A DNA stretch of 64,000 nt. Origin: Balneolaceae bacterium (GTDB lineage Bacteria > Bacteroidota > Rhodothermia > Balneolales > Balneolaceae). The notes under the pieces were generated by a model, which worked only from the letters and a program-made list of their open reading frames with translations, searched no databases and was not told the DNA's origin. The position numbers and the translations under genes are program-made. The DNA lies in contig REDA01000011.1 of assembly GCA_007693745.1 (NCBI GenBank), forward strand, positions 1 to 64,000, given 5' to 3'. How positions within the stretch are numbered: the first letter of the stretch is position 1; each line of letters begins with the position of its first letter. Positions 19,043-49,366 of the stretch are shown piece by piece.

Positions 19043-20683
19043 TCACCACTCCGGTTCCCTTCCGGCAGCTGCCCTGCCCGCGATTCTTCCGGTAAGGATG
19101 CATCCACCAAGGAAGGTACCCTCGAGCGATCGGAGCCCGTGAATCCCTCCTCCTCCAAAACCGGCTGCTTCACCCGCTGCGTATAGTCCCCCAACAGTAC
19201 TTCCTGATTCTGACAGGACCTGCGACTGCAGATCTGTCTGGATTCCGCCAAGGCTTTTCCTTGCAAGAATAAACTCCCGAATGGCAACCAAGGGGTACGC
19301 TTTCGTATCGTCAATCTTCTGATTTATACAGGTCCGGAGCCGGTCTCCTGCGAACTGCCTCAGATGATCAATACGCCTGAGCTGATCATCATTCCTGAAC
19401 TTCCTCCCACGGGCGATATTCTCATCAAATTCTCTAACACCCATCTCAAGCCGGTCGGCGTTCACACTCTGATCACCCTGAAGATCATTCATCTTACCCG
19501 CAAGTTCACGAACGGATCCTGCGGTGACGATGTCACTGCTTTCACCTAACAGTCTGTCGGCCAGTTCACGGTTTCCAAAGAGAAGCGTGTGTGCAATTTT
19601 CAGTTTCTTTTTATCACGAAATGCAGTCATATACTCCGAACCCGAGACGGCCAGCTCTCTTTTCATGATCTTATAGTTTAGCACCTGCCAGGAATAACCG
19701 CCCGGCTGCCGGGTTATCTGCTCAACCAGATAGCGTGTATCGTAAGCCGTGATGAGGGGCAGCGGCCCGATTCGGTCCCCGTGGGCGTTCACCCATAGCG
19801 CTGTTTTTGGCGGTATCAGGCTCAGTCCGTGATTCGGTTTCCGTGGATTGGGATGATGAATACCGGCGGCGTAGTGAAACTGTTTTTCCATATGGGTCAG
19901 GTTTCCGCCGGCTTCCTTGACAAGTTCATGTACTTCGCCGTTTGCATACTGATGGGAACCGGTAAGCATTTTTTCCGGGGGCTTACCCCACGGTTTGTAC
20001 CAATTTTTCCTGACCACATCAAGATCTCCGCAAATCCCTCCGGCGGCCACAATCACATTTCCCGAACTGACTTCAAATTCGCTTCTGTTCTTCTCATCGA
20101 TTCCACTGCAACCCGTAACACGTCCATTTTGCACACTCAGCCCATTCACACGGTGATTGAACAGAACCGTGAGCAATGCGCTGTTCCTGTGCCCTTCCAG
20201 GCCTGCAATCAGCGCTTTCATCAATCCATCACCCGTACCCCAGGCGATATGCCATCTTGGCACGGAATTGCCCGGTTGAAAAAGGCCTCTCTCCGGCCAG
20301 TTTACCATAGCCAGAAAAGAGACTCCCCGTTTTTTAAGCCAGTGATAGATCCATTCAAGAGAGTGGTTTGTGTAAAACTCAGCCCATTTTCGAGGCCAAA
20401 CGGCACTCTTTTCAAATTCAGCAAAAGAACACCAGTCACGAAATGCGAGATCCGGAGAATCCCGAATACCCATCCTCTTCTGCTCCGGAGTCCCGACCAT
20501 ACAGATTCCTCCAAAAGACCAGCGGGCAAGTCCGCCAAATTCCTCCGGCTTGTCACGATCAAGCAGAAGCACACGCTTCCCGGCGTCGAGCAGTTCGATG
20601 GCTGCACAGATACCTGCCAGTCCGGCACCAACAATCACTGTATCCGTATGGTACTTATTGTTTTGCAACATCAATACTCTCAT
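19043..20683 (-). CDS. FAD-binding dehydrogenase (fumarate reductase/KSTD-like)
   Basis: A 546-residue flavoprotein with the N-terminal Rossmann motif VIVGAGLAGICAAIELLDAG (GAGLAG 19-24) and the C-terminal FAD-binding segment GSTVGGLYAAGEAAGFGGGG. It fits the family of soluble FAD-binding dehydrogenases related to 3-ketosteroid dehydrogenase and fumarate reductase flavoprotein. The substrate cannot be read from the sequence, and no signal peptide or Tat motif is present. It overlaps the CDP-alcohol phosphatidyltransferase gene by ATGA and so is translationally coupled to it. Met5 is an alternative start. Confidence 0.92.
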   Translation of the reverse strand: MRVLMLQNNKYHTDTVIVGAGLAGICAAIELLDAGKRVLLLDRDKPEEFGGLARWSFGGICMVGTPEQKRMGIRDSPDLAFRDWCSFAEFEKSAVWPRKWAEFYTNHSLEWIYHWLKKRGVSFLAMVNWPERGLFQPGNSVPRWHIAWGTGDGLMKALIAGLEGHRNSALLTVLFNHRVNGLSVQNGRVTGCSGIDEKNRSEFEVSSGNVIVAAGGICGDLDVVRKNWYKPWGKPPEKMLTGSHQYANGEVHELVKEAGGNLTHMEKQFHYAAGIHHPNPRKPNHGLSLIPPKTALWVNAHGDRIGPLPLITAYDTRYLVEQITRQPGGYSWQVLNYKIMKRELAVSGSEYMTAFRDKKKLKIAHTLLFGNRELADRLLGESSDIVTAGSVRELAGKMNDLQGDQSVNADRLEMGVREFDENIARGRKFRNDDQLRRIDHLRQFAGDRLRTCINQKIDDTKAYPLVAIREFILARKSLGGIQTDLQSQVLSESGSTVGGLYAAGEAAGFGGGGIHGLRSLEGTFLGGCILTGRIAGRAAAGREPEW

Positions 20684-21267
20684 TTTTTATTTCTTTTTTC
20701 ACCCCGCAGATGCAAAATAGAACGCGTGTCCGGATCTACGTTGCCATAGAGTAAAAAAATGGTAATCACCTCAATGAAAGCCATGGAATAGATAAAGATG
20801 ATGGAGCGAATCAGAAAGGTAGTATCAAAAAAGAATGAGGCTAAAACACCAAAAAAAACCAGTACTCCACATAGTCTGCTCAGATGAGTATGCAGAAACA
20901 GAATTCTTCCAAGCTTGAGGTGTGAAACGAATACAGATGCACCGAAAATGATAAACATGGCCAGCAGATACACATAATTTGGTTGCAGGTACTCCGGAAA
21001 AAGATAAAAGAGAAAGAAAGCAGCAGAAATATAGTAGGCGACATCAGCTACGGCATCAAGCATCGATCCGAATTCAGACACCTGGTTCCATCTCCTGGCC
21101 AGTAAACCGTCAAAATAGTCGGTCAGACCCAGATAGATGAACCAGAGAATGAACCAGGCCTGATTCTCGAAATTAATGAAAACAAACAGCAGCGGTACTC
21201 CAAGAAGCCTGGAGAGAGAGAGAATGTTTGGGATGTTGAGTGATGCGTCTTTTAGTTTCATAATCAA
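20680..21267 (-). CDS. CDP-alcohol phosphatidyltransferase
   Basis: Integral membrane enzyme that transfers a phosphatidyl group from CDP-diacylglycerol (or a CDP-alcohol) to an alcohol. The 195 residues contain several membrane helices and an intact signature D-G-x2-A-R-x8-G-x3-D-x3-D (Asp53 to Asp75), with an additional Asp50 (TDYFDG) as metal ligand. Size and N-terminus (SLNIPNILSLSRLLGVPLLF) are PgsA-like, but phosphatidylglycerophosphate, cardiolipin or inositol-type products cannot be told apart. First gene of the operon continuing with the FAD dehydrogenase. The start may be Met1 or Met3. Confidence 0.93.
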   Translation of the reverse strand: MIMKLKDASLNIPNILSLSRLLGVPLLFVFINFENQAWFILWFIYLGLTDYFDGLLARRWNQVSEFGSMLDAVADVAYYISAAFFLFYLFPEYLQPNYVYLLAMFIIFGASVFVSHLKLGRILFLHTHLSRLCGVLVFFGVLASFFFDTTFLIRSIIFIYSMAFIEVITIFLLYGNVDPDTRSILHLRGEKRNKK

Positions 21268-21350: not shown

Positions 21351-21488
21351 GGGGCTTCAAACAACGGAAGTTATGGTTGGGCAGAGTGTGTTGAGACTGT
21401 AAAAAAACTGCAGTTTTTAAAAACTGAATGAAGATTCGGTCTTTACACCAATGCAGTAATCGTGTAAAAATGGTCTCTTTGAAGCCCC
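21351..21488. repeat. Nested inverted-repeat element, possible structured RNA
   Basis: An 11-bp perfect inverted repeat GGGGCTTCAAA/TTTGAAGCCCC (21351-21361, 21478-21488) closes a 138-bp segment. Directly inside its right arm, GTCTC (21473-21477) matches GAGAC (21393-21397). Further inside are three abutting 8-mers, AAAAACTG-CAGTTTTT-AAAAACTG (21403-21426), where the middle can pair with either neighbour. A 7-bp stem TTTACAC/GTGTAAA (21442-21448, 21462-21468) lies between them and GTCTC. Strand and function are unknown; no known riboswitch class is recognised. Confidence 0.55.
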
Positions 21489-21614: not shown

Positions 21615-22103
21615 ATGTCTGATCAACCACTTATCGGCGTTGTAATGGGAAGCGACAGTGACTGGGCTGTAATGAAGGAGGCTGCTGAAACATTGACATC
21701 TTTCGGAGTTGCTTTTGAAAAACGTGTGGTCTCTGCCCACAGAACGCCTGAGCTGATGGCGCAGTATGGTTCTGAGGCTGAAAAGAGAGGGCTCAAGGTT
21801 ATTATCGCCGGTGCGGGAGGAGCTGCTCACTTGCCCGGGATGCTGGCCTCCTACACAACGCTTCCTGTAGTGGGAGTACCTGTGAAGACCACAGCTCTGG
21901 GAGGAGTCGACAGCCTCTACTCTATCGTTCAAATGCCCAATGGTGTTCCGGTGGCAACCGTTGCCATCAACAAGGCTGTGAATGCAGCGCTGCTTGCAAT
22001 CAGGATTTTAAGTCTTTCTGATACTCAGTTATCCCAAAAACTTAAAGAATACCGGAAGATTATGGCAGCGGAATCGGTCGAAAAAACCAGGAACCTTCTC
22101 TGA
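21615..22103 (+). CDS. purE: N5-CAIR mutase
   Basis: Class I PurE converts N5-CAIR (made by PurK) to CAIR in de novo purine synthesis. The 162-residue length and the motifs [10 protein letters not shown] (8-17), SAHRTPE and [15 protein letters not shown] are diagnostic. It is separated from purK by 4.5 kb and lies downstream of an unusual dyad-rich region. It is followed 27 bp later by a cytochrome c lipoprotein gene. Confidence 0.98.
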
Positions 22104-37612: not shown

Positions 37613-37649
37613 AAAAAAAAACCCGCATTTGTACATGCGGGTTTTTTTA
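37613..37649. terminator. Bidirectional intrinsic terminator
   Basis: ACCCGCAT/ATGCGGGT (37621-37628 and 37635-37642) forms an 8-bp GC-rich stem with a 6-nt loop, flanked by an A-run on the left and a T-run on the right. It can end both the citrate synthase transcript (plus) and the alanine dehydrogenase transcript (minus). Confidence 0.92.
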
Positions 37650-49331: not shown

Positions 49332-49366
49332 AAAAAAGGCAGCCGCGGTTCAGGGCTGCCTTTTTT
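49332..49366 (+). terminator. Intrinsic terminator after FAS1 lipoprotein
   Basis: GGCAGCC/GGCTGCC (49338-49344, 49354-49360) forms a 7-bp GC stem with a 9-nt loop, flanked by six A and six T. The next gene, at 49555, faces the other way. The rest of the gap (49367-49554) shows nothing recognisable. Confidence 0.9.

Follow-up and report, generated by a model that had tools for sequence, protein, structure and literature searches.

The Correia elements of Neisseria are dispersed MITE-like hairpins of 100-150 bp, and MITEs are usually unified by their ends. As a group, the bacterial MITEs (reviewed in PMC10969869) are small, non-coding, dispersed hairpin elements that have terminal inverted repeats and target duplications and are moved in trans. 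The ERIC/RU-1, YPAL/RU-2, and RU-3 repeats of enterobacteria (PMC2759123) follow a related plan, being dispersed intergenic palindromic repeats of 100-170 bp that form one long hairpin, with TA target duplications reported for ERIC and YPAL (PMC2759123).

Here, we propose that a segment of a 64,000-nucleotide stretch of DNA from a Balneolaceae bacterium (the whole stretch analysed, hereafter the window) is very probably an old, diverged copy of a non-autonomous MITE-like mobile element, lying on the + strand (Table 1). It sits in a 347-bp intergenic gap between a CDP-alcohol phosphatidyltransferase gene and purE, which are divergently oriented; an earlier reading made from the letters alone (the sequence-only reading) had placed it between purE and a phospholipid-synthase operon. 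The repeats which that reading described are all present: a perfect 11-bp inverted repeat enclosing 116 nt, a second matching pair, a 7-bp hairpin, and a triplet of arms, the middle one of which was said to pair with either neighbour. Such alternative pairing can formally be drawn, but arms that abut with a loop of zero make a poor switch. What looked like mutually exclusive stems is best read as the conserved AAAACYGCAG motif next to an apical loop that is A/T-rich and has drifted.

Table 1. Features of the segment and of its two flanking genes (positions in the window)
Feature	Position	Strand	Basis or remark
CDP-alcohol phosphatidyltransferase gene, left neighbour	20680..21267	-	PF01066
Whole element, very probably a divergent copy of the dispersed 138-bp hairpin family	21351..21488	+	Family profile and covariance model placement
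Left terminal inverted repeat GGGGCTTCAAA (family version GGGGCTTTGAA)	21351..21361	+	Pairs 8 and 9 differ from the family on both sides
Inner stem, 5' side, GAGACUG	21393..21399	+	Minimum-energy fold; partner 21437-21443
Second pair, GAGAC / GTCTC	21393..21397 / 21473..21477		Present in sequence
Triplet AAAAACTG-CAGTTTTT-AAAAACTG	21403..21426		Present in sequence
Apical core AAAACTGCAG-N15-TGAAGATT, the part conserved across phyla	21404..21436	+	Pattern match, 2 mismatches
Inner stem, 3' side, CGGUCUU	21437..21443	+	Minimum-energy fold
7-bp hairpin, TTTACAC / GTGTAAA	21442..21448 / 21462..21468		Present in sequence
Right terminal inverted repeat TTTGAAGCCCC (family version TTCAAAGCCCC)	21478..21488	+	Direct reading
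purE, right neighbour	21615..22103	+	PF00731

How unusual is this arrangement? The window has 2 perfect inverted repeats with arms of at least 11 bp and loops of 20-160 nt, versus 2.4 in shuffles, and the outer 11-bp repeat alone is therefore not significant. In contrast, the whole segment folds unusually well on the + strand (-45.2 kcal/mol, z -4.5, rank 4 of 3650 among 140-nt tiles). Much of the unusual fold stems from the outer arms, as z is only -2.2 on the + strand and -1.9 on the - strand once they are removed; of the two strands, + folds better. On visual inspection an integron attC site was also weighed and set aside, there being no matching core-site pair. Elsewhere in the window, hairpins at 37615-37648 (AAAAAAACCCGCAT/ATGCGGGTTTTTTT) and 49332-49366 (AAAAAAGGCAGCC/GGCTGCCTTTTTT) resemble bidirectional transcription terminators.

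A pattern search of the bacterium's own genome with the arm of the segment returned several recurrences of a near relative, GGGGCTTTGAAAAAC. With up to 2 mismatches, this 15-mer has 160 sites in the 2.87-Mb genome versus 6 for the reversed control, many of them paired head to head 137-139 bp apart, and the extracted copies form one clear family of ~138 bp (140 bp counting one extra G/C per end) with terminal inverted repeats of ~15 bp and element ends written as GGGGGCTTTGAAAAAC. The family covariance model matches at least 82 dispersed copies in this genome; ten were inspected for their surroundings, and these are intergenic or nearly so. Other members of the order have up to 54 copies per genome by the same model, and copy number among genomes of the same genus ranges from 0 to >80. 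Outside the extra G/C, a perfect 5-bp direct repeat flanks 13 of 73 copies (expectation 0.07), and mean identity at this offset is 57% versus ~30% at other offsets. The mobility of the family is indicated by these target duplications. As a whole, the family has the marks of a MITE: dispersed short non-coding copies, terminal inverted repeats, and a 5-bp target duplication. One locus (L177; G000:C83, ~187062-187199) holds a short end-to-end repeat form that resembles an internal deletion derivative.

Structurally, the whole element is one long imperfect hairpin capped by AAAACC-GCA-GC...GT-GA-GG-A-TTTT, with 83% of alignment cells paired versus 37-54% with slid partners. Counted on the structure derived from one family member, 114 cells are altered on both sides versus 39 in shuffles, and the inner stems vary between genomes yet remain complementary. 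RNAalifold returned an empty structure for an alignment of 51 sequences. Of the three guesses in the sequence-only reading (leader switch, small RNA, or MITE-like relic), it is the last that is borne out by this covariation together with the dispersal of the copies, their terminal inverted repeats, and the family's target duplications.

Does the segment itself belong to this family? A profile was built from 63 own-genome copies, leaving the segment out, and both strands of the entire window were scanned with it. The top place is exactly the segment, on the + strand (score 34.1 versus 16.2 for the next), and shuffles keeping the arms score 7.2 +/- 5.5, with 0 of 400 reaching the segment's score. 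The covariance model likewise has its best match in the window at exactly these ends, over model positions 1-138 of 138, with an E of 0.0043 that is modest and roughly calibrated. Allowing up to 3 mismatches, the core AAAACCGCAG-N15-TGAGGATT has a single match in the window, where 0.06 are expected; it lies in the segment, and the two bases by which it differs (C to T and G to A) are partners in a single pair of the family structure. At the ends, the left arm has 3 mismatches to the family terminal repeat and the 11 outer pairs are kept. A model made from the window copy as a single sequence found one other site in the 2.9-Mb genome, weakly (E 0.98), and that site (L346) belongs firmly to the family (E 5e-16). 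Plain nhmmer with the family profile was not sensitive enough and missed the window copy, which is ~57% identical to the family consensus over 143 columns, and a search of 58 genomes for a subfamily with exactly its ends returned nothing besides the copy itself.

The target duplication is found in the family but not in the window copy, which has none at the family's offset, as one would expect of an old copy; the 5-bp ATCAA match seen at offsets 6/5 probably arose by chance. Pairing in the window copy, the perfect 11-bp end stem included, is better kept than the rest; this may point to a need for pairing during the element's active life, or may reflect ascertainment, perfect arms having drawn notice in the first place.

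In the history that we envisage, family copies would be moved in trans by a putative transposase recognising the ends and/or the hairpin, and one copy would have inserted between the phosphatidyltransferase gene and purE. It would then have lost its target duplication and drifted to its present divergence, with the end stem and the core staying pairable throughout. At this site it presumably has no function, and a role in purE control is not indicated. A transposase was sought in the flanks of two unpaired family ends and none was found there.

Other origins for the segment have to be weighed against this one. An inverted repeat arising by chance in an A/T-rich intergenic region is in keeping with the two such repeats expected per window, but it is disfavoured, and in our judgement highly improbable, when the family profile and model place themselves exactly at the segment ends and the core motif stands at the correct spacing. 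A cis-acting purE leader RNA or riboswitch with alternative stems, the leader switch of the sequence-only reading, would suit the position of the segment, 126 bp ahead of the purE start and on the strand of purE, which is also the strand on which it folds better. However, no similar hairpin occurs upstream of purE in 29 related genomes. A search of the window against Rfam, at gathering and at relaxed thresholds, gave nothing relevant, and the segment is already explained as a copy of a repeat present elsewhere in the genome. Nor was the phosphatidyltransferase found in relatives at purE loci taken in contig orientation with 1.5 kb on each side, and a scan of the genome collection with it found nothing. 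The 347-bp gap, used as a DNA query against 57 related genomes, gave chance-level matches only; an 80% match at C42 was rejected, as it sits in apparently coding sequence. Comparison of the relatives' purE intergenic regions hence yields no conserved counterpart, and from the 29 hairpin-free upstream regions and the absent gap counterpart it follows that a conserved purE leader is unsupported, an explanation to which we give almost no credence. A perfect inverted repeat of 16 bp (GAGGCTGTCCAAAAAG, loop of 194 nt), lying ~454 to 229 bp upstream of purE at L019 (G021), may be a further MITE-like element.

Alternatively, the family could be a functional host RNA or regulatory hairpin (a terminator, mRNA stabiliser, or small RNA) of which the window copy still works. 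Covariation within the family, an apex conserved across phyla on lineage-specific arms, and paired changes at three positions of the window copy would fit such a function, but palindromic mobile elements retain their hairpin without any host function. The range of copy number within one genus and the target duplications, which point to mobility, also argue against it, as does the absence of an Rfam match: a search with family copies from several phyla matched only tRNAs nearby and not the element. We regard a working host hairpin as unlikely, and favour the diverged copy of a mobile element.

How does this mobile family compare with the described systems? It shares with the bacterial MITEs the features listed at the outset but differs in that its hairpin tip is conserved between lineages while ends and arms vary. 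Like the ERIC and YPAL repeats it is a dispersed, intergenic long hairpin, and it is set apart from them by the descriptions of their target duplication (TA, versus 5 bp in the present family). The Correia elements are likewise dispersed MITE-like hairpins, and a possible likeness of internal motifs would be no more than a lead.

Another counterpart is a ~150-bp repeat of E. coli and Buttiauxella, which has the same apical core (AAACCGGAGC...GTGAGGATTT) and long-hairpin plan, although its ends and arms are unrelated in sequence and its copy number is low. The Balneolaceae model matches it in Buttiauxella (E 1.8e-6), in E. coli N3 (E 5.8e-6), and weakly in K-12 (E 0.011). Relatives of the Buttiauxella copy occur in 5375 of 5426 E. 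coli genomes, at a median of five places, one E. coli copy lying between qseG and glrK/qseE (L315:1501-1650; L344:6500-6680). The repeat is unannotated in the K-12 region viewed, and it may be the RSA repeat of Rudd 1999.

In public genome contigs, the core pattern is found, among the matches listed, in Balneolales (including Fodinibius roseus), Alistipes and other Rikenellaceae, Desulfobulbaceae, Desulfocapsa, Clostridiaceae, a Rickettsia endosymbiont, other alpha- and gammaproteobacteria, Myxococcales, Planctomycetota, Candidatus Uhrbacteria, and Buttiauxella, with the provisos that an exact-core search may make the core look more uniform than it is and that metagenome assemblies may contain foreign contigs. 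By phylum, the family apex is seen in Bacteroidota, Pseudomonadota, Desulfobacterota, Planctomycetota, and others, and almost every E. coli has it. Of ~25 elements that were folded, most give a single long hairpin with this apex and a few fold more weakly. The arms differ among lineages and retain their complementarity, and when right arms are swapped between lineages the mean energy rises to -36 kcal/mol, from -57 with the elements' own arms. Across many phyla, the loci L201-L280 (e.g. L206, L213, L221, L234, L272, and L275) present hairpin repeats with the apex AAAACCGCAGC...GTGAGGATTTT, unrelated arms, and no Rfam entry. In Alistipes/Rikenellaceae (L222, L225, L243, L246, and L260), 2-3 copies stand in close direct succession, some ~120-140 bp apart, in a tandem-like arrangement.

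We tentatively suggest, as a possibility short of an even chance, that the window copy belongs to a superfamily of mobile hairpin repeats in at least 8 phyla, unified by the apical motif AAAACC-GCA-GC-stem-GT-GA-GG-A-TTTT, with ends and arms that are lineage-specific and covarying. A literature search for this family, or for a cross-phylum hairpin family, found no paper describing it.

In light of these findings, what had been suspected of being a leader switch very probably becomes an insertion relic, and the segment should be masked before control elements of purE are sought. The analysis also brings to light a mobile family of hairpins whose tip is conserved and which is absent from Rfam; it occurs in Balneolales, Rikenellaceae, Desulfobulbaceae, a Rickettsia endosymbiont, E. 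coli, and others. If the superfamily reading is true, it would mean that a shared factor recognises the tip of the hairpin and not its ends.
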